Assembly (NCBI RefSeq): GCF_003003885.1
Contig: NZ_PVWN01000017.1
Span: 1-64,000, forward strand
Direction of reading: 5' to 3'
DNA from: Chlorogloea sp. CCALA 695
Lineage (GTDB): Bacteria; Cyanobacteriota; Cyanobacteriia; Cyanobacteriales; Chroococcidiopsidaceae
DNA length: 64,000 nt
Positions 1 to 52,599 of the stretch are shown piece after piece. The position numbers and the translations under genes were made by a program. Every line of letters begins with the position of its first letter. The first letter of the stretch is position 1. The notes under the pieces are model-generated. The model saw only the letters and a program-made list of their open reading frames with translations. It did no database searches and was not told the DNA's origin.

Positions 1-19
1 AGATGTGTATAAGAGACAG
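1..19. other. Sequencing adapter (Nextera/Tn5 mosaic end), not genomic
   Basis: The first 19 bases read AGATGTGTATAAGAGACAG, identical to the Tn5 mosaic-end part of Nextera adapters. Translated in the third frame they give the artefactual N-terminus MCIRDR fused to the following gene. Genomic sequence should be taken to start at about base 20. The window therefore begins at the untrimmed end of an assembled contig. Confidence 0.97.
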
Positions 20-1553
20 ACCTACAAGCCCAGAACCAATCCCTGGGGAAATTCCAGCAACTATTACAGTGGAAAGATTTGAGGTAGAAGGGAGTACCGT
101 TTTTAGCCCAGAAGAATTTGCTAAAGTTCTTGCCCCTTATACCAAAAAACCAATTTCCTTTGCCGAGCTTTTTCAAGCCCGTTCTGCGGTTACTCAGTTG
201 TATATAGAGCGGGGTTATATTACTTCTGGCGCATTAATTGCGCCACAAACCCTCGGAGGTGGGGTAGTAAAAATTCAAGTAGTGGAAGGTAGTTTAGAAG
301 CTATCAATATTACTGGAAATAAAAAGTTAGATCCAAGTTATATCCGCGATCGCATTGCCATCCGTACAGGCAAACCGCTCAACCAACAACAACTTCTCAG
401 AGCCTTGCAACTACTGCAACTCAATCCCCTTATTCAAAACCTCTCGGCGGAACTTGCCACAGGTTCTCGTCCTGGCACAAATATATTAGAAGTCAATGTA
501 ACTGAAGCGCAAACAGCCCATATTCAACTACTTACAGATAATGGGCGATCGCCTAGCGTAGGTAGTTTCCGCCGTCAAGTCCAGGCAAATGAAGCCAACT
601 TATTAGGACTAGGAGACAATCTAAGCGTAGCCTACAGCAATACCGACGGCAGCAATAGTTTGGATACTAGCTACACATTGCCGCTCAATCCCCGCGACGG
701 TACTCTCAGCTTTAGTTACGGAACCTCCGCCAGCGATGTAATTGAGCGTCCTTTTAATGAACTCGATATTAATGCTAGTTCTCGCTACTACGAACTAACT
801 TTGCGTCAACCAGTTATCCAAACGCCTAGCCAAGAATTTGCTCTTGGTTTAACAGCAGCACGTAGAGAAACCGATGCTTTATTTCTTGAAGGGCTGCAAA
901 TACCCTTCCCCTCCCCCGGCGCAGACGAGCGAGGACGCACCCGCGTGTCAGCGTTGCAATTTTTTCAAGAGTGGACTGCTCGAAACAGCAACCAAGCGAT
1001 CGCCGCGCGCTCCCAATTTAGTTTAGGGATTGGCGCTCTAAATTCGACAATCAATGCAACTGAACCAGATAGCCGCTTTTTCTCTTGGCGGGGACAAGCT
1101 CAATGGGTGAGGCTTTTGGCTGCTGATACTTTGCTTTTAGTCCGTACTGATGTGCAGTTGGCAGAACGAGCGCTTGTACCTTTGGAACAGTTTGGACTTG
1201 GCGGAATCAATAGCGTTAGAGGTTATCGTCAAGATGCTTTACTCACTGATAATGGCGCTTTCACATCAGTTGAATTACGTCTGCCAATCTATCGCCGCCA
1301 AAGGCAAAGATTACTCGTGCAACTAGCACCATTTGTCGATTTCGGTACTACGTGGAACAATTCTCGTAGAAATCAGGGCAATACTTCAGAATCTAATACT
1401 TTAGCTTCTCTAGGCGTTGGTTTGCGCTGTCAATTGGGCGATTATTTTACTGCTCGATTAGATTGGGGTATTCCTTTGATTGATATTCCTTCAGGAGATA
1501 GAACATGGCAAGAAAATGGCTTATATTTCTCGCTGATTTACAACCCATTTTGA
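20..1553 (+). CDS. ShlB/FhaC/HecB-family two-partner secretion translocator (TpsB), 5' partial
   Basis: This encodes an outer-membrane TpsB pore that would export a large TpsA exoprotein from the periplasm. The readable part (about 510 residues) has a POTRA-like region at the start (FEVEGSTVFSPEEF, then a second half with the GKPLNQQQLLRALQLLQ segment), followed by an aromatic-rich 16-strand-type barrel ending in YNPF. The conserved VRGY motif of the plug loop is present (GLGGINSVRGY, bases about 1203-1226). The true start, signal peptide and any upstream TpsA gene are lost, because bases 1-19 are adapter; the apparent ATG at base 3 is an artefact. The CHAT gene downstream overlaps its 3' end, so they are probably co-transcribed. 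The family call is secure, the exported substrate unknown. Confidence 0.9.
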
Positions 1554-4195
1554 TCAACTCTTTAGCTCAAAAGGATTTAGCCAAAAAATGGAAAATTACT
1601 ACCCGTAACTTGCTAAAAGTAAGTCTAGCAGTAGTAATAGTGTGTTTGGCTCCAGAACAATTATTAGCGATCGCGCAATCTACCGCTTCTAGATCAGAAC
1701 CTCAAATTCAAGCTATAAATAACCCGGAGCTAGTCCAAAAAGGCAGAAAATTATACGAAACAGAACAGTTTTCTGAAGCGATAAAAGTTTGGCAACAAAG
1801 CTTACAAGCATACCAAGGGCAAAACGATGTAGCTAATCAGGCTATGGTTTTGAGCAATCTTTCCTTGGCTTATCAGCAACTTGGGCAATGGGAAGCAGCA
1901 ACAAAGGCGATCGCATCCAGCCTCAAATTATTGCAAGCAACTAACAAGAATCTACCAATCTTAGCCCAAGCGCTCAACACTCAAGGCAGCCTTCAACTGG
2001 CTTTAGGGCAACCTCAGCAAGCTTTAACTACTTGGACTCAAGCAACGACGGCTTATACTCAAGCCAAAGATAAAATAGGAATTGCCCGCAGTTTAATCAA
2101 TCAATCCCAAGCTTTGCAAGCATTAGGGCTTTATCGCCGCGCTTTGACAAGCTTAAACGCTGTTAATCAAAAGCTCCAAAACCAACCAGACTCTCTAGTT
2201 AAAATCGCTGGATTACGCAATCTAGGAAATGCTTTACGGGTAGTGGGCGATTTGGAACAGTCGCAGCGAATATTACAGCAAAGCTTACTATTGGCTCAAA
2301 AATTAAACTCGATTCCAGATATTGGTGCAACTTTGTTTAGCCTCGGTAATACCGCCAGAGCGCAGCCTAATAGTAAAGCTGCATTGAATTACTACAAGCA
2401 ATCTACAACAGCATCTTCTGGAACTATTAAAACCCAAGCTCAATTAAATCAGCTTGGTTTATTAGTAGAAACAAATCAATCAATCTCTGCCCAAGCCTTA
2501 TTGCCGCAAATTAGGACAGAAATCGCTAGTCTACCTTTAAGTAGTAAAGCAATATACGCTCAAATTGATTTTGCCCAGAGTCTACAAGATTTGAGTAAGC
2601 GTACAGGACAAGGAACTATATCTTTATCAGAAATTGCTCAGTTGTTGGCTAAAGCTGTAAACCAAGCTCAAAGCTTGGGAGATAAACGAGCGGAAGCTTA
2701 TGCCCTAAGTAATTTAGGCGAATTATACGAACAAACTGAACAATGGGAAAATGCCCAACAATTGACAGAAAAGTCTTTACTAATTGCTCAAGCAATTAAT
2801 GCTCCAGAGATAGCCTATCGCTCCTCGTGGCAACTAGGTAGAGTATTTAAAGCTCAAGGAAATATATCTAGTGCGATCGCAGCTTACACAGAATCAGTTA
2901 GTTTACTTAAATCCTTACGCAATGATTTAGTTGCCATCAATCCAGATGTGCAGTTCTCTTTTCGTGAAGAAGTAGAACCTGTTTATCGCGGGTTGGTTGA
3001 TTTGTTATTGAGCAAAAATGACCCAAAAGTTAGTCAAGAAAACTTAATTCAAGCACGAGCGGTAATTGAATCTCTGCAACTAGCACAGTTAGATAACTTT
3101 TTTCGGGAAGCTTGCATTGAAGCAAATTCTTTAGTGTTAATTGATCGCCTAGCCGATAGAGAAGATCAAAGCGCGGCAATTATTTACCCAATTATTTTAG
3201 GCGATCGCACCGAAGTTATCCTCAAATTACCTAACGCGCCCCTGACTCACTACACCATTGCCAAGTCTCAACCCCAAATAGAAAAAACCTTAGAAACCTT
3301 ACGTACTAAGCTAACGGAACCTGATACAGTTAAAGAAGTTAAAGCTTTATCACAACAAGTATATAGCTGGTTAATCCAACCTGTAGAGGCGCAAATAGCT
3401 GAGAGTAAAGCTAAAACTTTAGTCTTTGTACTAGATGGGGCTTTCCAAAATATTCCGATGGCCGCCTTGTATGATGGCAAACAGTATTTAATTGAAAAAT
3501 ACGCTGTAGCTCTCAGCCCTGGCTTACAGCTATTAGCATCTGAGTCCTTGCCCCAAAAAGGTCTAAAAGCATTAACGGCGGGACTCAGCGCTGCTCCAGC
3601 TAACTCTCCTTACCCGCCTTTACCATCGGTCAAAGCAGAATTTAATTTAATCGAGCAAGCTGGGATAAAAACTAATCAACTGCTAGATGGTAAATTTACT
3701 AGCAAGTCTCTAGCGGCGGCGATGGAGTCATCAGGCTTTAATATTGTTCACATTGCTACTCATGGACAATTTAGTTCCGAAGCAAAAAATACATTTATTC
3801 TAGCCTCCGATGGAGAAATTAATGTTAAGCAACTAGATACTTTACTGCGCGATGCTAATGGGAGGCAGAATCAGCGAAACCGCAATTCACCCAATGGAAT
3901 CTCCTTATTAGTTTTAAGTGCCTGCGAAACCGCCGTAGGTGACAAGCGTGCTGCTTTAGGCATGGCAGGGGTTGCAATCCGGGCGGGGGCGCGCAGTACC
4001 TTAGCGTCTTTATGGCAAATAGATGATGAAGCCACAGCCCTATTTATTGGAGAATTTTATCGAGAGTTAGCTACGAGTAAAATTACTAAAGCCGAAGCTC
4101 TCCGCCGCGCTCAGGTAAGGTTTTTAAAAAAATATCCTAATTACAGCCGCCCTAGTTATTGGGGAGCCTATGTTTTAATTGGTAATTGGCTTTAA
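1505..4195 (+). CDS. TPR-repeat protein with C-terminal CHAT (caspase-like) domain
   Basis: An 896-residue protein. A hydrophobic stretch near residues 35-56 (NLLKVSLAVVIVCLAPEQLL) looks like a signal peptide, so it is probably periplasmic. TPR helices fill about residues 75-480 (LAYQQLGQWEAA, LGNTARAQPNSKAALNYY, LGELYEQTEQWENA). The CHAT domain covers about 600-896, with the putative catalytic dyad His753 (HIATHGQF) and Cys807 (LSACETAVG). The ATG used overlaps the tpsB gene by 49 bases; a TTG at 1550, sharing TTGA with the tpsB stop, would place the signal peptide nearer the N-terminus and is a plausible true start. Co-direction and overlap with tpsB suggest one operon. Whether the protease is active, and on what, cannot be read from sequence; processing of the TpsA exoprotein is a hypothesis. 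Confidence 0.88.
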   Translation: MARKWLIFLADLQPILINSLAQKDLAKKWKITTRNLLKVSLAVVIVCLAPEQLLAIAQSTASRSEPQIQAINNPELVQKGRKLYETEQFSEAIKVWQQSLQAYQGQNDVANQAMVLSNLSLAYQQLGQWEAATKAIASSLKLLQATNKNLPILAQALNTQGSLQLALGQPQQALTTWTQATTAYTQAKDKIGIARSLINQSQALQALGLYRRALTSLNAVNQKLQNQPDSLVKIAGLRNLGNALRVVGDLEQSQRILQQSLLLAQKLNSIPDIGATLFSLGNTARAQPNSKAALNYYKQSTTASSGTIKTQAQLNQLGLLVETNQSISAQALLPQIRTEIASLPLSSKAIYAQIDFAQSLQDLSKRTGQGTISLSEIAQLLAKAVNQAQSLGDKRAEAYALSNLGELYEQTEQWENAQQLTEKSLLIAQAINAPEIAYRSSWQLGRVFKAQGNISSAIAAYTESVSLLKSLRNDLVAINPDVQFSFREEVEPVYRGLVDLLLSKNDPKVSQENLIQARAVIESLQLAQLDNFFREACIEANSLVLIDRLADREDQSAAIIYPIILGDRTEVILKLPNAPLTHYTIAKSQPQIEKTLETLRTKLTEPDTVKEVKALSQQVYSWLIQPVEAQIAESKAKTLVFVLDGAFQNIPMAALYDGKQYLIEKYAVALSPGLQLLASESLPQKGLKALTAGLSAAPANSPYPPLPSVKAEFNLIEQAGIKTNQLLDGKFTSKSLAAAMESSGFNIVHIATHGQFSSEAKNTFILASDGEINVKQLDTLLRDANGRQNQRNRNSPNGISLLVLSACETAVGDKRAALGMAGVAIRAGARSTLASLWQIDDEATALFIGEFYRELATSKITKAEALRRAQVRFLKKYPNYSRPSYWGAYVLIGNWL

Positions 4196-4205
4196 AAAGT
4201 CAAAA

Positions 4206-5105
4206 TTAATCAGGGTTATACTCACTTATTAAAGATTTTCTGTCTTTGGTATCTGTCCCCTTAATTGATTCCGAGGCTAGAGTAGATAAATCTATTGTTT
4301 TTAGTATGTTTTGCCAATCTGCTGAAGATGCGGTATCTTCTAAGTTTTGCAAGCGTATTTGCGCTAAAGTTGCTACGGTATCGTACCAAATACCATTTTC
4401 TGCATACAAAACTACTTGTTCATGTAACGACGTTGTGTTAGCTAGGCGATCACCAATAGTAGCATTAAGATTAACTCGCTGTACCCAGCCTTCTACAAAT
4501 ACCGGGCTTGCCATATTTTGACTGCAACGAACTTTAAAGTACCAACGGTACATTTTATCGACAGCTAACGGTGCAGACTCAGGAGGTAATTGCAATCTGA
4601 TAATTCCTGGTTCTTTAGGGAGCGCAATTGGAGAGCGATAAATATCGTTATCTTCCGATTGCAATACAAATTCCCCCGTAGCAGGATAAGTATAGGGAAC
4701 ATAAAATAAAAAAGTTGGATATTTCTTAACTGTTAATCCCCACACATTTGTAGCAACGATCGCATTATTTCCGTTATCGACAGACGTTTTAATACTAGGT
4801 ACTACCGCCGTTAAAGGTATATTTACATTGTTTAAACAACTTCCACGCCCCGCCGCGCCTCTTTGCCGTCCGCTAGGCGCTCCATTGCTTGGCAATTTGG
4901 GTTGAATAAAGGTTATTCTCCCCGGTCGCTTCGGTGCTTGGTTGGGCGATCGCAGGGAGGTAGGAGCAGCAACTTTGTTGACATTAACATTTTGTGCGTT
5001 TCCTTGGGTAATATAGCTGGTACTCGCAAGCACCAATACAACTATACCGAGCGATCGCTTGGCAAAGGTACGAAATTGGGTCATGTTTTCCATCGCTAAT
5101 TTCAT
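4206..5105 (-). CDS. DUF928 domain-containing secreted protein
   Basis: A 299-residue protein with a signal peptide (KRSLGIVVLVLASTSYITQGNAQ), a basic proline-rich linker (about 45-90, with RPGRITF and GRQRGAAGRGS), and a DUF928 domain at about 90-230 recognised by NIPLTAVVP, WGLTVKKYPTFLFYVPY, EFVLQSEDND and YRWYFKVRC. The family is largely cyanobacterial and has no established function; the fold is predicted to be extracytoplasmic. Internal Met5 or Met8 are alternative starts. It lies 33 bases after the CHASE2 kinase on the same strand, and its end is 10 bases from the end of the convergent CHAT gene. DUF928, CHASE2 and CHAT-TPR genes recur near each other in cyanobacteria, which suggests a shared role. 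Confidence 0.88.
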   Translation of the reverse strand: MKLAMENMTQFRTFAKRSLGIVVLVLASTSYITQGNAQNVNVNKVAAPTSLRSPNQAPKRPGRITFIQPKLPSNGAPSGRQRGAAGRGSCLNNVNIPLTAVVPSIKTSVDNGNNAIVATNVWGLTVKKYPTFLFYVPYTYPATGEFVLQSEDNDIYRSPIALPKEPGIIRLQLPPESAPLAVDKMYRWYFKVRCSQNMASPVFVEGWVQRVNLNATIGDRLANTTSLHEQVVLYAENGIWYDTVATLAQIRLQNLEDTASSADWQNILKTIDLSTLASESIKGTDTKDRKSLISEYNPD

Positions 5106-5138
5106 TCCAGTGATAGTTTTTTCTTTAAAACAGTAATA

Positions 5139-7343
5139 CTATTTAGATTTATAATTTCGGTAAATTACTATAATTATGCTTGTAAATAATAATGATAAAG
5201 CTGGGGGTACTAAAGGAACTAAGCTACCTTGAAGTAAAAGCCCGAAACACGTACTACCCAAAATAAAAAGTGTAACAGATGCCGCTAATCCTAAATATAA
5301 TATTTGCTTAAAGTACCAAGCCAACAGACCACCGACTATTGACCAAAAAGCAACCCAAAGATTTTCTAGCCATAAGTTCCACACCGATAACACAGGTCTT
5401 TGATCCAAAACAGCACTTAAAATATGACTAACCATTTGTGCTTGGATGAACACTCCTGGTGACTGTTTTTCAAAGCGCCGTTGGTTACTACTATAAGGTG
5501 TAAACCAGTAATCATTAACACTGGTTGGCGCAGTAACTCCAATAAGAACGATTCGGTCTTGCAATTGTTTTTTTGTCGCTGGGGTGAGGCGATTTTTTAA
5601 AATATCATCGAGACTAACTTGGAAAGTAATATCGGTAACTGCACGGTAAGGGCGGTAATTGAGTAGCACTTGATAACCTCTCAAGTCAGCATTTTTATAA
5701 GCCCCGCTATTATTAGCATTTAGACGACTAAAAACCACTTCACCAAATTGTAAGTTACCTTGAGGCGTAACTTTTGGGACAATACCCTCGGTAGCCAAGT
5801 AATACAGCGCTAACTGAAGACTAAAAGCATATTCGGTAGTACAAGGAGAAGTAGAGGGGGGCGTTAGATGTAGTAGCTGACGGCGAACAGTGGTATCTTC
5901 GTCAGACATAATGTCACTAAAACCAATAAATTCTGGTGATAATTCTGGTGGTGGCGCAATCCCTGGGTTATTTGTACTTGGATCGCTAATTTTACACAGA
6001 CCAATAAAATTATCGCTCTTTTGCAGGTATTTAGTTAAGTTTGGATAGGCTACACCGACGGGAACATCACGATAAATATCTAAACCGATCGCTCTTGGTT
6101 GGTATTGTTCTAATACCATTAATAATTGCTCTAAAGTGCGATCGCTTAAACTTCCTTGTCTTGGGAATTGGGCTTGAATATCAGCTTCAGTAATTGTGAC
6201 AACTAGCAGGCGAGGATCTGCTCCTTCAAGGGGTCGCAAGCGTTGTAAGCTATCACTAGCGGCTAATTCCCACGTTTCCAACGCTCCTTGCTGACGCACA
6301 CCTACAACTACGCTAGTAACTACAATGCTAGTCAGGAGCATTCGTAAACCAGTACGCCAAATTTGACGAATAGAGCTTTGGCGCTGTTGAGTACGAGTTG
6401 TTTGATTAATTGTCGTCGTAATTTGCTTCGTAGCTAGAGGTAGCCTTGTCTCGTCGTAGATATTGCCTTTAACTAAGCACTCTAAAATACTTTGCGCGTT
6501 TTGTGGTCGATTTTGGGGAAGGGGAGCTAGTAATTCGTCAATTAAATATACCAACCACTCGGAAATTTGGGACGCTTGGTTTCGCCAGATTAACTGATTA
6601 GTTTGCGGATTTTTGGGTAATTCGGCTGGATAAATCCCTGTAAGTAAATGTATAAAGGTGCGTCCCAAAGCAAAAAAGTCTGATTCTTTAACTGCTTGAC
6701 CTTCCATTTGTTCTAGGGGCGTGTATCCGGGAGAATAAACTTGAGTAATATCGCTTTGACCTAGTTTATGAACGTAAGTATGAGTAATTTCTCTAACTGT
6801 GCCAAAGTCAATTAGTACCAGTTGCCCATCTGGACGCAGCATAATATTAGAAGGCTTGATGTCTCGATGCAAAAGTTGGGCTTGATGCACCTCGCTTAAA
6901 ATACTTGTAATTTGTTTGAGCCAATTAATCGCCCTTGCTTCAGAGATTGGTTCATTTTCTTCTAGCCACTGCTTGAGATTTTGTCCCTCAATTTTCTCCA
7001 TGACCAAGCAATGCAGTTTTTTTGATTCATTGTTTGGTAAAAAAGTAAAGTATTCATATACTTTAGGAACACCCAAATTTTGCAGTTTTTGCAATACTTT
7101 TGCTTCTTGCTGCAATAGTTCGATTAATTTAGAGCGATCGCTATTTAAGACTTTTAGCACTTTTCGCGTGCTGCGATCGTCTACTTCAAAGATTTCTGTT
7201 GTATGTACTCCCGATAATTCCCGTAACGGTTTTACAAGCAGGTAACGTCCGTTAATCAGCAAAGAAGTACCACAAAACGAACACTTTTCTAAATTGTCGG
7301 GATTTTGGCGGATTTGACACCTGGGGTTGATGCAGTGACTCAT
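5139..7343 (-). CDS. CHASE2-domain Ser/Thr protein kinase with N-terminal zinc ribbon
   Basis: A 734-residue membrane signalling protein. The N-terminus has a four-cysteine zinc ribbon (C4, C9, C21, C24). The kinase domain spans about 33-295: beta3 lysine K64, alpha-C glutamate E80, HRD 159-161 with KPSN following, DFG 179-181 and an APE-like TPLEQ segment. The glycine loop (residues about 40-47, LRELSGVH) lacks GxGxxG, so ATP binding may be atypical. A transmembrane helix near 330-350 leads to an extracytoplasmic CHASE2 sensor domain (about 355-640, with DPRLLVVTITEADI and PRAIGLDIYRD), then three C-terminal transmembrane segments. It sits 23 bases after bciB and 33 before DUF928, so the three are probably one transcript. 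The ligand is unknown. Confidence 0.9.
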   Translation of the reverse strand: MSHCINPRCQIRQNPDNLEKCSFCGTSLLINGRYLLVKPLRELSGVHTTEIFEVDDRSTRKVLKVLNSDRSKLIELLQQEAKVLQKLQNLGVPKVYEYFTFLPNNESKKLHCLVMEKIEGQNLKQWLEENEPISEARAINWLKQITSILSEVHQAQLLHRDIKPSNIMLRPDGQLVLIDFGTVREITHTYVHKLGQSDITQVYSPGYTPLEQMEGQAVKESDFFALGRTFIHLLTGIYPAELPKNPQTNQLIWRNQASQISEWLVYLIDELLAPLPQNRPQNAQSILECLVKGNIYDETRLPLATKQITTTINQTTRTQQRQSSIRQIWRTGLRMLLTSIVVTSVVVGVRQQGALETWELAASDSLQRLRPLEGADPRLLVVTITEADIQAQFPRQGSLSDRTLEQLLMVLEQYQPRAIGLDIYRDVPVGVAYPNLTKYLQKSDNFIGLCKISDPSTNNPGIAPPPELSPEFIGFSDIMSDEDTTVRRQLLHLTPPSTSPCTTEYAFSLQLALYYLATEGIVPKVTPQGNLQFGEVVFSRLNANNSGAYKNADLRGYQVLLNYRPYRAVTDITFQVSLDDILKNRLTPATKKQLQDRIVLIGVTAPTSVNDYWFTPYSSNQRRFEKQSPGVFIQAQMVSHILSAVLDQRPVLSVWNLWLENLWVAFWSIVGGLLAWYFKQILYLGLAASVTLFILGSTCFGLLLQGSLVPLVPPALSLLFTSIIIVIYRNYKSK

Positions 7344-32332: not shown

Positions 32333-35300
32333 CTAACCAGCTACAGCTAAAGCTCCAGCGATCGCCGAACAAATGGCAGAAACAACTGCTGTACCAGCTA
32401 ACCATTGAGCAGCCGTTGCGGCGGCTTTACGGGTTTCTTCCGCTTGCTTTTGGGCTTGATGCTTAACATCTTCCAAACGTCGTTGGGCTTCGTGCTGGAT
32501 GCGCTCGGCTCGTTGTAAGACACTATTGCGCGCCCCTTCAATTTGGTCAATAATTCGGTTTGCATCAGCCTCGCTAATATCTTCCCGAGAACTCATTACA
32601 GCAACTAGAGTATCGCGGTTAAACGAACCTAGGCGATCGCGAATTGAGTCAAAACCCGCTTGGGGATCATCAAACAACTGACGGACATCGCGTTTGATGC
32701 CATCATAGTTAAGTTCGGGACGATCAAGAGCATTAAGGTAATTACGAATTTGACCAAATACACCATCAAGCGTATCTTGAATGCGGCGTTGTACCGCCCT
32801 TACTTGCTCAACAAATTGTTCGCGTACAGCTAAAACTTGATCGACAATCCGCGCCGCTTCTTCCTCCGACATATCGCCCCGCGCTTGCAGCAAAGTAACT
32901 ACTGTATCGCGGTCAAAATGAGCTAATCTGTCGCTAAAACTTTCTACCCCGGCTCTTGGATCGTGGATTAATAGCTGCAAATCGCGCTTAATACTTTCAG
33001 GATTAAGTTCATCTTTACCCGTATTTCGCAAGTAATCTTCAACATTGGCTTGGAAAGTTTGAACTCTTTGCCCAGTTCTAGCGGCTAAACGTCTGGGACT
33101 CTTTATAATGTTACGAATCGAACCTTGCACTCCGTCAATGACTTGATTTACCTGATCTTCGCTCAAATCTCGGCGTTGACTGAGCAATTGCACTAGAGTA
33201 TCTCGATCTACTTGAGACAAGCGGCGGCGTAAAGCCAAAGCCCCCTGTTGAGGATTTTCAAAGAGTTTAGAGAAATCGCGGGCAATTCCTTCAGGGTTCA
33301 ATTCATCTTTACCAGTATTTCGCAAGTAATCCGATAAAGTTGTTGTCACTGAATCGTACTGATCTTTAGCTAAAGCCGTAACGTTTTGCGGTGCGTGGCG
33401 GAGGTTTCCCCAGACTGATTCTACTTGATTGATAGTCTGATTGATTTGGTCTTCATTTAAGTCTTGACGCTGATTGAGCAACTGTACCAAAGTGTCGCGG
33501 TCAAAACGAGATACTCGGCTTGCGATCGCACTCATTCCGGCTTGGGGATCGTTTAACAGGGTTTTAAGTTCACTTGCGATCGCATTAGGGTTAAGTTCAT
33601 CTTTGCCAGTATTCCGCAAATAAGATTCTAAATTCAACCATAACGACTCTGCTTGAGCTTTCCCTTGGTCTACCAAGTTTTGTGATTCAAACAATACGCG
33701 ATCGCGCTGTGCTTCTAATAGTCCAACAATTTCCCCCGCTTCAGCTTCGGAAACATCGTTGCGCTGAAGCAATACTTCGCGCATGGACTCTCGATCTAAA
33801 GAAGCTAGACGAATACTCAAAGTTTCATGATTTGCCTCCGAATCTTGCAGTAGCGGCTTAAAGCTGCGTTCAATTCCTTCGGTAGTCAACTCTGACTTAC
33901 TTGTAACTAGCAAATAGCTTTCTACGGCTCTTTGCAAGTCTTGGGCAGCCTCTTTCTCCTCTTGTCCTCTAGAAATAGTCAGAACTTCAGTACGGATGCT
34001 TTCTAGGCGATCAGCAATCGAGGCAATTTGCGTTTGGGTAAGAATCCCGCGCTGTTGCAACAGTTGCACAAAATCGTTACGAGAAAGTTGTTCTAATTGA
34101 CGGCGTACTGCTCCAGGGTCGGCGGCTGGATCGTACAATACATCATGGAATTCTTGGGCAATTTTTTCAGAACTCATTTGCCAAGCATAAGTATTGAGCA
34201 AATAGTTTTCCACATCGGCGCGGATGGTACTGTAAGGCAAATTAGGGGTTTTTATTCCTGTTTGCGTCGCAATCTTATCTGCTTGCTCGGTTACTTTGTC
34301 TTTGGCGCTAGTAAGAGAGCCGATAATCTTTTCTACATCAAAGTCTGAAAGATCCGTGCGTCCCATTACTAACCCGATGAGAGTATTCATGCCTGTTTGC
34401 AGAATACCCGGCGCATTGTCTGAAGGTGCTTTTTTGTCAGCATCTTTTGTTTGACGCATTTGGGCCATCAAGCGATCAATCTTGCTATCTAGTTCGTCAG
34501 TTTTTGTTTGTCCTGGTGCAACGCCTTTAAGATACTCTACCAATTCGCCCATGTGGTCAGTTTGGGGTTCGTGGCGATCAACTACTTGCTTCCATACCCC
34601 TTCTAATTGCTCGACAATCCGGTTGCGATCTTTCTTAGATAAGTCCGTGCGGCTGCTGACCAATTCGACAAACTTCTCTCTGTCTATATTGCGTAAATCG
34701 CTACTTCCGGCTACAGCTTTTAGCTGCGGATCGTTGAGCAATTTTTCAAATTCGCCCTTAATTTTGCTTAAGTCCAATTCGGGAGGACGCAGCATTTGTA
34801 AGTAGTCTTCGACATTTTCCCGAATACTCATTGGATCCATACCCGACCCTAACTCGCGACGGATTGCTGAAGCGGCGGCTTCGGCAGTAGCGACGACTTG
34901 ATTATTTACAGCTTTTGCGCCCAAGGCGGCGGCGGCAGTTCCCATCAAAGCCTGCATTCCAGACGTTGCGGTATTGATTAAAGAGCCAACGAGCGATCCT
35001 ACACTACTTGAACCTACCCACACTAAGAGCAAGAAGTAAGCTGCCCAAATTACTAAACCAATGATCGCGCCAAGTCCTGAACTTTGAATCAAACTTAGTT
35101 TTACTGCCAAAAAACAAGCGATCGCTAAGGAAACACTGACACTAATTAAGGTTCCTAACCCCAAAGCCGTGCCAATTTTTCGCATAGTACCGCCAAAGCT
35201 TGTCGTTTCGTTGTCTGTGTCACTTTCGTTCTCATGCGACGAACTGCGCCCTAAAAGAAAGGCTACACCAACGTTAGTTAGTAATAGCTGTATGGCAAAA

Positions 35301-35455
35301 GCCAGCACTACCCCGGCAATTAAAGCCACAAAAAACTTGGGGCCTGAAAACAAAAGCGCCGTATCTTCTGGAGTTTGCACTCCTTCTGTGACTGGAATTT
35401 GTGCTAACCACAGCATTTTGTCCAGTCCCAGTGTCATCCCAATATGTTCAAACAT
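32333..35455 (-). CDS. Large membrane protein with seven to eight internal repeats, unknown function
   Basis: A 1040-residue protein I do not recognise. The N-terminal 190 residues contain about four membrane helices (FFVALIAGVVLAFAIQLLL, TLISVSVSLAIACFLAV, GLGAIIGLVIWAAYFLLLVWV) and a soluble Ser/Glu loop. From about 212 on, a unit of roughly 90-105 residues repeats: YL-x-x-[NT]-x-K-x-EL-x-x-x-x-I-x-x-[DE]-x-x-x-LL-x-DP, then DRDTLVQLLxQRxDLSExxxxxIIDQ. Copies begin near 212, 413, 510, 610, 715, 815 and 910, with a partial one near 355. The last three are nearly identical in YLRNTGKDELNP. The tail is a basic coiled coil (ERIQHEAQRRLEDVKHQAQKQAEETRKA, residues about 990-1020) and a final hydrophobic helix. 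The repeats suggest a long cytoplasmic or thylakoid-surface scaffold. Confidence 0.85.
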   Translation of the reverse strand: MFEHIGMTLGLDKMLWLAQIPVTEGVQTPEDTALLFSGPKFFVALIAGVVLAFAIQLLLTNVGVAFLLGRSSSHENESDTDNETTSFGGTMRKIGTALGLGTLISVSVSLAIACFLAVKLSLIQSSGLGAIIGLVIWAAYFLLLVWVGSSSVGSLVGSLINTATSGMQALMGTAAAALGAKAVNNQVVATAEAAASAIRRELGSGMDPMSIRENVEDYLQMLRPPELDLSKIKGEFEKLLNDPQLKAVAGSSDLRNIDREKFVELVSSRTDLSKKDRNRIVEQLEGVWKQVVDRHEPQTDHMGELVEYLKGVAPGQTKTDELDSKIDRLMAQMRQTKDADKKAPSDNAPGILQTGMNTLIGLVMGRTDLSDFDVEKIIGSLTSAKDKVTEQADKIATQTGIKTPNLPYSTIRADVENYLLNTYAWQMSSEKIAQEFHDVLYDPAADPGAVRRQLEQLSRNDFVQLLQQRGILTQTQIASIADRLESIRTEVLTISRGQEEKEAAQDLQRAVESYLLVTSKSELTTEGIERSFKPLLQDSEANHETLSIRLASLDRESMREVLLQRNDVSEAEAGEIVGLLEAQRDRVLFESQNLVDQGKAQAESLWLNLESYLRNTGKDELNPNAIASELKTLLNDPQAGMSAIASRVSRFDRDTLVQLLNQRQDLNEDQINQTINQVESVWGNLRHAPQNVTALAKDQYDSVTTTLSDYLRNTGKDELNPEGIARDFSKLFENPQQGALALRRRLSQVDRDTLVQLLSQRRDLSEDQVNQVIDGVQGSIRNIIKSPRRLAARTGQRVQTFQANVEDYLRNTGKDELNPESIKRDLQLLIHDPRAGVESFSDRLAHFDRDTVVTLLQARGDMSEEEAARIVDQVLAVREQFVEQVRAVQRRIQDTLDGVFGQIRNYLNALDRPELNYDGIKRDVRQLFDDPQAGFDSIRDRLGSFNRDTLVAVMSSREDISEADANRIIDQIEGARNSVLQRAERIQHEAQRRLEDVKHQAQKQAEETRKAAATAAQWLAGTAVVSAICSAIAGALAVAG

Positions 35456-49612: not shown

Positions 49613-50056
49613 ATGTCATCTCAGCAATTTGTTCAATCAATAGAAATTAATGCAAGTCCCCAGGTAGTTGAGGATTGTATAAGAAGTCGAATACTAATGC
49701 ACAAATGGTTAAATCCAGTATTAAAATGCGAACCTGTGGGCGAATGGAGTACCGAAGTAGGCAGTCGCAGCAAGTTTATAATTAAGATTCCCATAATTAA
49801 ACCAACTCTCGAAGCGGTAGTTAAAGAACAAAAACCTGGCTTAATTGTGTGGGAATTTACAGGGTTTTTTCAAGGGAGCGATTTTTGGGAATACAAACCA
49901 ACAGCACAAGGGACGCTGTTAGTCAATACTTTTAAGTTTGAAATTCCTAACCCTATGATTCGCTGGGGTTTTAATGTATTTGCGGCTTCTTTAACAAAAA
50001 TGGATATGCAAAGTCAATTGCAACGGCTTAAACGTGTCGCCGAAACCAGAGTTTAG
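49613..50056 (+). CDS. SRPBCC (polyketide cyclase/START-like) family protein
   Basis: A 147-residue protein with the helix-grip fold: FVQSIEINASPQVVEDCIRSRILMHKWLNP, then IIKPTLEAVVKEQKPGLIVWEF and GSDFWEYKPTAQGTLLVNTFKFEI. It would bind hydrophobic ligands or lipids; none can be named. It converges with the Pnkp gene, overlapping it by four bases at the 3' end, and has its own upstream region of about 260 bases. Confidence 0.84.
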   Translation: MSSQQFVQSIEINASPQVVEDCIRSRILMHKWLNPVLKCEPVGEWSTEVGSRSKFIIKIPIIKPTLEAVVKEQKPGLIVWEFTGFFQGSDFWEYKPTAQGTLLVNTFKFEIPNPMIRWGFNVFAASLTKMDMQSQLQRLKRVAETRV

Positions 50057-52599
50057 AGACGCGGATCTACAGGTTCGCTTTCTAATGCCAACACTCCAAA
50101 AACGCATTCATGGACGCGGCGCAAAGGTTCTTTTCTTGTAAAACGTTCTAGGGATTCCATCCCTAGCGCAAACTCTCGCAGTGCTAAAGAGCGCTTTCTA
50201 GATAAACCACGCGATCGCAATCTTTCCAAATTCTCTGGTAATGTGTATTCCGCACCGTAGATAATCCGCAAGTATTCCTTACCTCTACATTTAACGGCAG
50301 GTTGTGCCAAACCGCGATCGCCTTTAAAAACAAAATCCAACGGTTTAACAACAATTCCCTCTCCACCAATGCTAGTAAGTTCTTCCCACCAAGCAACCCC
50401 AGTAGCAGTGTCATTAACATCTACTAGTTTATAAGCCGTTGCTAGTAATAATTCTGGTTCGGCTTTACATAGTTGCGCCAGAGTTTCCATGTGCCAAACA
50501 TGAGTTTTATTGTTATGAACTTCTCCTTCTGTTGCCAAAATGTGAAATGGTGCAAGTTTCAAGTCAGCTAACGATTCAACTTGCCAACAATAACGCCGAT
50601 AAGCCTCGACATACTGCGCCGCCATCTCTGCACGGTTTTGATAATGAGTTAAAAATGTCTCCACTCCATTTATGCGTTTAGCTGCCATTTCTAGGGCTGA
50701 AACCGCCTGATTAAGCGAAGAGTTGGCTGCTGCTCCTACCGCCGCGTATTGACGCTGCAACAGTTCTTGAGCCTTGGCTGACCAAGGCATCAATTCGCAG
50801 TCCAAAGCTACCCAACTTGTATTGAATTGTTCCCAAAAACCAGATACTTCTAAAGCATTTTGCACCTTTGCTAGCATTTGGCTTTCAAGTTCAGCATCGC
50901 TAAAAAAGCGCCTTCCGGTGCGGGTGTAGCAAATTCCTATACCTTCATCGATTACCCCAAAACGGTCTCTTGCGGCTTCCTCATCGCGGCAAATAATTAC
51001 TACCGCACGAGAACCCATATGTTTTTCTTCGCAAATAACTTGAGAAACACCTTGGTTTTGGTAATAGGTAAATGCTTGAGATGGATGTTCAAGTAACCCT
51101 TGCTGCTTGGAGGTTTCACAGGGTGACATTGTAGGGGGAAGATAGATTAGCCATTTGGGATTAGCCGCAAAACGACTCATAACTTCAATTGCTGCGATCG
51201 CATTTTCTGCCCTAATACTAATTCTGCCATGAGTGCGAGTCTCAATAACTCGCTTACCCAACACATCGTCTATATCTAAAACATCGTCTAACTGCTGTTG
51301 AGTAGTTAGCGATATTTCTTCTGTAGGTAAAAATGGCTTAGTTGATTCGCAATAAACCTGTTGTGCTGCAACCGATACTAACTCTTTTTCTGGGTAACGT
51401 AAGGCAGTTAATTTGCCCCCATAGACACAACCTGTATCAATATCAATCGTACCGTTAAGCCATTGCGCCTCTATTACTGGAGTATGCCCATAAACAACGA
51501 TCGCTTTTCCTCTATATTCTGCTGCCCAATCGTAGCGTACAGGTAGCCCAAAATCATCTGTTTCCCCGGTAGTTTCGCCATACAATGCAAAATCTCGTAC
51601 TCTACCCGAACCCCGTCCTTGCAAGGCTTCTTTCATCCCTGCATGAGCTACAACTAAATTACCATCATCTAAAACGTAGTGACTAATTAAAGAATCAAGA
51701 AATTTAACTGTTTCTTGAGAAAAGAGTTCGCGCTTATCATCGGGTAAAGCATCGATTTCGGCAAGAGTTTTATCTAAACCGTGCGTAATTTTGACATTTT
51801 TGCCTTGCAATTTCCTCATCAATTTCATGTCATGATTGCCGGGAACGCATAAAGCCGTACCTGCTACAACCATATTTTGCACTAGCGCCAAAGTATCCAA
51901 AATCCGGTTTCCTCTATCTACCAAATCGCCCAAAAATAGCGCTTTTCTACCTTGAGGATGAAAATAATTTTGTTCGGGGGATATTTCGTAGCCTAGCTTT
52001 TGTAATAGTGCTTCTAATTCGTCACAACAGCCGTGAATATCCCCAATAATATCAAAGGGGCCATGTTCGGTTTTGCGGTTATTCCACAATGGTTGACGAT
52101 AAATGCTAACTTCTTCAATATCTTCAACAGAGTTGAGAATATAGGAATAGCGGAAACCTTCACGTTTGAGGTGTTTCAAGCTTTGGCGCATCGATTCTCG
52201 TTGTCTTCGCACCACATGAACGCCAAAATTACGGTTCGGGCGCTGCTGGTTGCGATCGTGACATAATTGTTCTGGTAAATTGAGTGCGATCGCAACTGGC
52301 AAACAATGATACTCTTTCGCTAGTTCTAGTAAGTGTTTTCGGTCTTCTTTTTGCACATTAGTTGCATCAATTACCGTCAACTTTCCAGCCGCTAATCTTT
52401 TAGCAGCGATGTAGTGGACAACAGCAAAAGCATCTTTACTAACAGCTTGATTGTTTTCATCATCGCAAATCAATCCTCGGCAAAAGTCCGACGATATAAC
52501 TTCTGTTGATTTGAAATGCTTTTTAGCAAAGCTAGACTTTCCAGCACCAGAAGCACCCATGAGGACAACTAAAGATAGTTCGGGTATAGTAATTTTCAT
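50053..52599 (-). CDS. pnkp: Polynucleotide kinase-phosphatase-ligase Pnkp (RNA repair)
   Basis: An 848-residue three-part RNA end-healing and sealing enzyme. The kinase comes first (P-loop GASGAGKS 15-22, with K21, S22, D38 and R41 in expected places). A calcineurin-type 2',3'-phosphatase follows (D187 and H189 in GDIHGC, D225 in GDLVDRG, GNHD about 254-257, later GHTP). Last is a nucleotidyltransferase/ligase domain from about 450 with the adenylation Lys526 in EEKHMGSRAV. Alone, this enzyme can only adenylate; sealing requires partner Hen1, which is encoded 199 bases upstream on the same strand. It repairs tRNA or other RNA cut by ribotoxins and makes the junction proof against a second cut. 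Confidence 0.94.
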   Translation of the reverse strand: MKITIPELSLVVLMGASGAGKSSFAKKHFKSTEVISSDFCRGLICDDENNQAVSKDAFAVVHYIAAKRLAAGKLTVIDATNVQKEDRKHLLELAKEYHCLPVAIALNLPEQLCHDRNQQRPNRNFGVHVVRRQRESMRQSLKHLKREGFRYSYILNSVEDIEEVSIYRQPLWNNRKTEHGPFDIIGDIHGCCDELEALLQKLGYEISPEQNYFHPQGRKALFLGDLVDRGNRILDTLALVQNMVVAGTALCVPGNHDMKLMRKLQGKNVKITHGLDKTLAEIDALPDDKRELFSQETVKFLDSLISHYVLDDGNLVVAHAGMKEALQGRGSGRVRDFALYGETTGETDDFGLPVRYDWAAEYRGKAIVVYGHTPVIEAQWLNGTIDIDTGCVYGGKLTALRYPEKELVSVAAQQVYCESTKPFLPTEEISLTTQQQLDDVLDIDDVLGKRVIETRTHGRISIRAENAIAAIEVMSRFAANPKWLIYLPPTMSPCETSKQQGLLEHPSQAFTYYQNQGVSQVICEEKHMGSRAVVIICRDEEAARDRFGVIDEGIGICYTRTGRRFFSDAELESQMLAKVQNALEVSGFWEQFNTSWVALDCELMPWSAKAQELLQRQYAAVGAAANSSLNQAVSALEMAAKRINGVETFLTHYQNRAEMAAQYVEAYRRYCWQVESLADLKLAPFHILATEGEVHNNKTHVWHMETLAQLCKAEPELLLATAYKLVDVNDTATGVAWWEELTSIGGEGIVVKPLDFVFKGDRGLAQPAVKCRGKEYLRIIYGAEYTLPENLERLRSRGLSRKRSLALREFALGMESLERFTRKEPLRRVHECVFGVLALESEPVDPRL

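Follow-up and report, generated by a model that had tools for sequence, protein, structure and literature searches.

Do four neighbouring genes at one end of a cyanobacterial contig, encoding a TpsB translocator, a TPR-CHAT protein, a DUF928 protein and a membrane receptor with a kinase and a CHASE2 domain, belong to one system that connects the cell surface with the cytoplasm? The genes lie in Chlorogloea sp. CCALA 695, in what we call the window: 64 kb that open a contig of 81.7 kb (genome total 5.23 Mb; window position 1 is base 1 of the contig). The original prediction, made from this DNA alone, had read them as a secretion and response system in which the CHAT protein processes or guards TpsA, the exoprotein exported by two-partner secretion (TPS), and the CHASE2 kinase reports on the envelope. 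All four genes were found together where that prediction placed them, each with its Pfam match. Their adjacency stands, but the layout had to be corrected: tpsB and the TPR-CHAT gene (chat) on the forward strand face the DUF928 and kinase-CHASE2 genes on the reverse strand, forming two convergent pairs and not a single operon. Taken together, our results indicate that the recurrent gene set is probably a previously undescribed surface-to-cytoplasm signalling system, the inner output of which has been swapped between species.

Co-occurrence across cyanobacterial genomes had been named in advance as the check on this idea. Complete family lists from 13 finished or near-finished cyanobacterial genomes were compared at a distance of 10 kb, and chance expectation was obtained from 200 circular shifts per family pair, with genome sizes rounded. 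DUF928 genes were near CHASE2 genes in 21 of 53 cases (1.5 expected, maximum 6) and near CHAT genes in 18 of 53 (3.0 expected, maximum 9). TpsA-type TPS genes were near CHAT in 30 of 45 cases (2.6 expected, maximum 7), ShlB genes in 10 of 27 (1.5 expected, maximum 5), and DUF928 was also found near TPS (11/53 versus 1.0 expected) and ShlB (9/53 versus 0.6). The check was clearly passed, and linkage of the gene set beyond chance in cyanobacteria is strongly supported. A second sample of 65 DUF928 genes, taken in score order irrespective of neighbourhood, contained at least one partner within 8 kb in 43 cases (CHASE2 35, CHAT 20, TPS 16 and ShlB 10).

The association was also visible from the TpsB side, where 80 named loci were collected, 51 of them, from one clade, with at least 8 kb on each side. 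DUF928 was present in 11 of the 17 loci with CHAT versus none of the 34 without it, and CHASE2 in 12 of 17 versus 0 of 34; relatedness among the 51 loci, many of the 34 resembling one orthologous Nostoc locus, makes Fisher values overstate independence. In Nostoc-type loci (L269, L283–L286, L288, L289, L291 and others; L numbers denote loci of other genomes), TpsB of the same clade occurs without CHAT and is followed by a conserved protein of 878–885 amino acids, which matches a GGDEF profile built from one sequence.

Gene fusion is standard evidence for functional coupling. Eighteen of the 45 TPS-domain proteins from the 13 genomes hold a CHAT domain in the same open frame, and seven CHAT-CHASE2 fusions and one TPS-ShlB fusion were detected in the same set, with a further TPS-ShlB fusion in L170. 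The link between CHAT and TpsA gains support from the CHAT-TPS fusions, and CHAT may process or guard TpsA.

DUF928 pairs specifically with CHASE2. Across 77 adjacent pairs, the distance matrices of the two families correlated with r = 0.717, which exceeds every one of 2,000 within-genome partner shuffles (maximum r 0.698, p = 0.0005). The pairing is therefore specific beyond shared genome ancestry. The DUF928 protein of the window scores 194 bits against a curated family cut-off of 26, and its AlphaFold2 model (predicted local distance difference test, pLDDT, 75.5) is a beta-sandwich with C-terminal helices and an N-terminal helix of signal-peptide type. By sequence it had no match among solved structures. 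Foldseek returned nothing at E < 0.001, the top hits being the MtxA C-terminal domain and carbohydrate-binding or FN3-like sandwiches, from which no function was drawn.

The partner of DUF928 in the window is a CHASE2 receptor, with transmembrane segments on both sides of the CHASE2 domain and a cytoplasmic output domain. The kinase domain has the HRD159 and DFG179 motifs and is preceded by a prefix formed by Cys4, Cys9, Cys21 and Cys24; a motif search of the receptor kinase detected no GxGxxG glycine-rich loop, which makes kinase activity uncertain. Pfam scans of 30 CHASE2 proteins, most of them beside DUF928, identified as outputs a cytosolic CHAT domain in 7, an adenylate/guanylate cyclase in 8, a histidine kinase with receiver in 3, AAA_35 in 2, GGDEF in 1 and a Ser/Thr kinase in 1, with none recognised in 8. 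Among the matches listed, the CHASE2 domain of the window is closest to that of a CHAT-CHASE2 receptor (56% to Gloeocapsa L268), and the next eight are all of the CHAT-CHASE2 type. In the nearest syntenic relatives a cytosolic CHAT domain occupies the position of the window's kinase, and the kinase form therefore resembles a replacement of the output within a locus that is syntenic in all else. This form is not confined to the window. Comparison of 1.5-kb flanks showed kinase-CHASE2, DUF928 and convergent CHAT to be kept in four congeners with sufficient flank (70–95% identical), and the same arrangement is found in two more distant genomes from two other families (43–44% identical). Domain calls in module regions, for part of the outputs and in the congener flanks used our own profiles from Pfam-identified seeds (GGDEF from one sequence). 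Some syntenic regions were chosen because they show linkage, and these serve for anatomy only and not for rates. The original prediction is thus partly supported: linkage is borne out and the coupling of CHAT with TpsA gains support, but the role of the kinase as reporter had to be revised, since it is the pairing of CHASE2 with DUF928 that is conserved and the kinase is just one among six or more exchangeable outputs.

These results suggest how the system may work. The complete module would comprise TpsA, TpsB, TPR-CHAT, DUF928 and the CHASE2 receptor. TpsB would export a TpsA exoprotein encoded just upstream, beyond the contig end, and the exported TPR-CHAT caspase-like protease would act on TpsA (or on DUF928) according to the state of the surface. 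Secreted DUF928, as the cognate periplasmic partner of CHASE2, would relay the signal inwards over the inner membrane, presumably by direct contact. The output would be a Ser/Thr kinase in the window and, elsewhere, a cytosolic CHAT domain with sigma-like and DUF1822 proteins, an adenylate/guanylate cyclase, GGDEF, a histidine kinase or an AAA ATPase. Gene content and order, linkage, fusions, output exchange, DUF928-CHASE2 co-evolution and the intact dyad are observed, whereas localisation, the substrate of the protease, DUF928-CHASE2 contact and the direction of signalling are proposals. We lean, by a modest degree, towards a functional trans-envelope signalling module that works broadly in this way.

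Several observations weigh against this reading, and some of them would suit two independent devices that happen to be neighbours: a TPS exoprotein system served by a CHAT maturation protease of its own, and a sensor made up of DUF928 and CHASE2, which exchange no signal and cluster through a common surface role or joint travel. The gene pairs of the window are convergent, which makes a promoter shared by tpsB-chat and kinase-duf928 impossible there. All four partner families were within 10 kb of only 7 of the 53 DUF928 genes, and 22 of the 65 in the second sample had no partner nearby. In that sample DUF928-CHASE2 often came without TPS and CHAT (35 genes with CHASE2, but 20 with CHAT and 16 with TPS). 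Numerous CHASE2 and CHAT genes stand apart from any partner, and no gene is therefore exclusive to the module. Co-variation of DUF928 with CHAT was weak and did not exceed that of within-genome shuffles (r = 0.217, p = 0.10). In addition, tpsA is not present in the window, where the contig breaks off inside tpsB, and we found no experiment on any module member. Against independent devices, all parts lie on one strand in L267, L352, L278, L302 and L308; in the TpsB clade described above DUF928, CHASE2 and TPS are found only where CHAT is present; and CHASE2 and CHAT distances co-vary above most within-genome shuffles (p = 0.023). We consider independence a rather unlikely explanation, well behind the signalling module.

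Coordinates of the features at the start of the window
Feature	Positions	Strand	Evidence
Nextera transposase adapter (mosaic end), AGATGTGTATAAGAGACAG	1–19	+	Exact match, 0 expected; non-genomic
TpsB, ShlB/FhaC-type translocator, 5' end missing	20–1553	+	Pfam ShlB, POTRA_2
TPR-CHAT protein, 896 amino acids	1505–4195	+	Pfam CHAT 1.9e-57, TPR_12 4.4e-30
CHAT domain	3344–4186	+	Pfam
DUF928 protein, 299 amino acids, predicted secreted	4206–5105	-	Pfam DUF928 (PF06051) 2.3e-57
Membrane receptor: four-Cys prefix, Ser/Thr kinase, transmembrane segment, CHASE2, C-terminal transmembrane segments	5139–7343	-	Pfam, transmembrane segments
CHASE2 domain, between transmembrane segment 331–349 and the C-terminal ones	5325–6317	-	Pfam CHASE2 2e-61
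Ser/Thr kinase domain, cytoplasmic output	6486–7160	-	Pfam Pkinase 5.5e-30, residues 62–286

The TPR-CHAT protein belongs with the clan CD cysteine protease-like proteins, combining a CHAT domain over the cut-off with a His/Cys dyad. The intact dyad of the original prediction was confirmed exactly at the codon level (His753, CAT at 3761–3763; Cys807, TGC at 3923–3925), and both residues are invariant across 25 relatives. Its N-terminus carries a hydrophobic, signal-peptide-like segment by hydropathy. This agrees with the periplasmic placement proposed originally, but the location is a prediction from that segment. The AlphaFold2 model (pLDDT 80), in which a long TPR solenoid precedes CHAT, matches Craspase TPR-CHAT/Csx29 and separase at a structural E of about 1e-11. 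Dyad and modelled fold are compatible with a protease. A non-proteolytic role, in which TPR-CHAT is a scaffold or chaperone that holds TpsA secretion-competent in the periplasm, would draw on the same solenoid, on the signal-peptide-like N-terminus and on the fusion of CHAT to TpsA. A pure scaffold, however, would have no need of a dyad invariant in 25 relatives, and two proteases, separase and Csx29, are among the close folds; we regard this role as very improbable.

The missing neighbour of tpsB can be read from relatives. Because bases 1–19 are Nextera adapter, the apparent TpsB start, MCIRDR, is adapter-derived and false, and both the true N-terminus and the upstream neighbour are lost beyond the contig end. 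What remains of TpsB combines POTRA_2 (E 6.8e-26, about 66–290) with a ShlB barrel (E 6.1e-29, 477–1427), as in type Vb (two-partner) secretion translocators, here with the N-terminus absent, and shares 66–71% identity with the TpsB proteins of syntenic relatives. Gloeocapsopsis crepidinum (L281, a stretch that also appears as L196 of genome G036, a member of the family to which the window's genome belongs) has tpsA, tpsB and chat in this order, with duf928-chase2 facing them, and we therefore read the missing gene as a putative tpsA immediately upstream. Exact synteny including TpsA was found in L196/L281, L167, L170 and L201. In the last two tpsA is fused to tpsB, giving single proteins with a TPS domain and a ShlB barrel (L170:7797-12122 and L201:4933-9324). 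No other locus examined carried a Nextera adapter, and so there was no contig end to join with the window's tpsB. The chat gene overlaps tpsB by 49 bp, with aggag a few bases 5' of its ATG. The same overlap recurs in L167, L170, L196, L268, L276, L281, L294, L301, L343 and L350; it was set aside as evidence, since the ATG falls inside the codons of a conserved Thr-Trp and the start calls followed a first-start rule.

A branch outside the window shows what its kinase replaces. Clustering of the genes around DUF928-CHASE2 pairs revealed two further recurrent partners, DUF1822 (Pfam E down to 1.7e-79) and a sigma-like protein. The latter has weak similarity to sigma-70 region 4 (best E 1.4e-4, below the cut-off, in 4 of 18 members), and its best PDB matches are extracytoplasmic function sigma factors (E 0.02–0.03). 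In a set that mixes picked and unpicked loci, modules with a CHAT-CHASE2 output contained the sigma-like gene in 20 of 25 cases and DUF1822 in 23 of 25, versus none of 32 modules with another identified output and 1 of 19 with none identified. After clustering at 60% identity, the sigma-like gene was found in 12 of 16 CHAT-CHASE2 clusters and DUF1822 in 14 of 16, versus 1 of 46 others. In each of the 20 complete cases the genes run sigma-DUF1822-CHAT/CHASE2-DUF928 along a single strand, with spacings mostly below about 30 bp (L167, L170, L196, L201, L267, L268, L278, L280, L292, L302, L308, L327 and L330, among others), and the FNSCDG motif of the cytosolic CHAT is invariant (25/25). This order suggests a protease-controlled sigma pathway, in which DUF1822 would be an anti-sigma factor cleaved by the cytosolic CHAT to release the sigma-like protein. 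The widest reading, a phylum-wide and partly plasmid-borne family in which a TPS exoprotein and an exported protease are read by DUF928-CHASE2, with a branch where cytosolic CHAT frees sigma from DUF1822, is tentative and has clearly less of our confidence than the module itself. If true, it would constitute a bacterial two-protease relay from the cell surface to transcription.

Modules were found on plasmids of Nostoc (L267, predicted conjugative), Planktothrix agardhii (L350), Calothrix (L351) and Pseudanabaena (L352), those of L267, L350 and L352 being either one-strand or convergent. The mobilizable Calothrix plasmid encodes a CHAT-TIR protein (L351:9345-10448) beside a CHASE2 protein, DUF928 and a 1415-amino-acid CHAT gene. 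This neighbour, plasmid carriage, exchangeable effectors and the Craspase-like TPR-CHAT fold would all fit a conflict or cell-death system, in which CHAT and effectors such as CHAT, TIR, cyclase, kinase or AAA are triggered when a neighbour, phage or toxin disturbs a surface complex. We judge this improbable: the outputs are for the most part second-messenger or phosphorelay domains of an ordinary kind, several chromosomal modules occur per genome, and PADLOC matched only generic TPR, BovA and kinase models. The PD-T4-6 models match residues 1–329 of the window's receptor, its four-Cys kinase part (E 1.6e-112), and leave CHASE2 outside; four-Cys Ser/Thr kinases matching PD-T4-6 are abundant in relatives, and this looks like an over-broad defence model. 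An anti-phage system was rejected, as there was no specific PADLOC match.

Elsewhere, the window encodes a Pnkp-type RNA repair protein with kinase (AAA_33), phosphatase (Metallophos) and PNKP ligase domains (50056–52599, reverse strand) and a 1040-amino-acid open reading frame with no Pfam match at E 1e-10 (32336–35455, reverse strand). It also contains 75 HIP1 sites (GCGATCGC) versus 0.57 expected; abundant HIP1 is known for many cyanobacteria.

CHAT caspase-like, DUF928 and CHASE2 proteins are numerous in each cyanobacterial genome and mostly lack an assigned function; linkage, fusions and co-evolution place them in a shared context. According to PMC10581220 the ligand of CHASE2 is unknown, and DUF928 becomes a testable candidate for it, as TpsA does for the substrate of the exported CHAT. 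In the open-access literature we found nothing that pairs CHAT with cyanobacterial two-partner secretion, connects DUF928 to CHAT or brings PF12770 and PF05860 together; subscription journals were outside this search, and an earlier description is possible. In Nostoc punctiforme, CHASE2 sensor and DUF928 genes are closely arrayed according to a WD40 survey (PMC5587647), the single paper on DUF928 that this literature yielded, which also cites the DUF928 gene sll1891 of Synechocystis as acid-stress responsive. The survey describes that cluster as a single species-specific case with WD40 genes and does not connect it to CHAT, TPS, output swap or sigma/DUF1822.

Among known proteins, HetF, a putative protease of the CHAT type with a single transmembrane segment, loses its function when the active site is mutated (PMC8406250), and a metacaspase-CHASE2 protein has been noted in Trichodesmium (PMC3501461, in the searched text of which neither CHAT nor hemagglutinin-type TPS proteins are named). 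Both are precedents for caspase-like proteins in signalling and resemble the CHAT-CHASE2 receptors described above, whereas the window's receptor bears a kinase and its CHAT is a separate TPR protein, predicted to be exported. In Craspase Csx29 and separase, too, a caspase-like domain comes after a TPR or helical solenoid, but they are cytoplasmic or nuclear, and the TPR-CHAT of the window bears a predicted signal sequence and lies in a TPS context. According to a review of TPS, genes for putative maturation proteases apparently lie outside TPS operons (PMC5422565); in the cyanobacterial loci, by contrast, chat either overlaps tpsB, comes directly after it or forms a fusion with tpsA, with a CHASE2 receptor and DUF928 linked. 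The best mechanistic analogy is CdrA/CdrB with LapG/LapD of Pseudomonas, where a periplasmic protease under cytoplasmic second-messenger control sets the release of a TPS exoprotein (PMC5422565). The likeness would lie in a TPS exoprotein governed by a protease and is one of working only, the protease-like gene of the window being CHAT and not LapG, and its receptor CHASE2.

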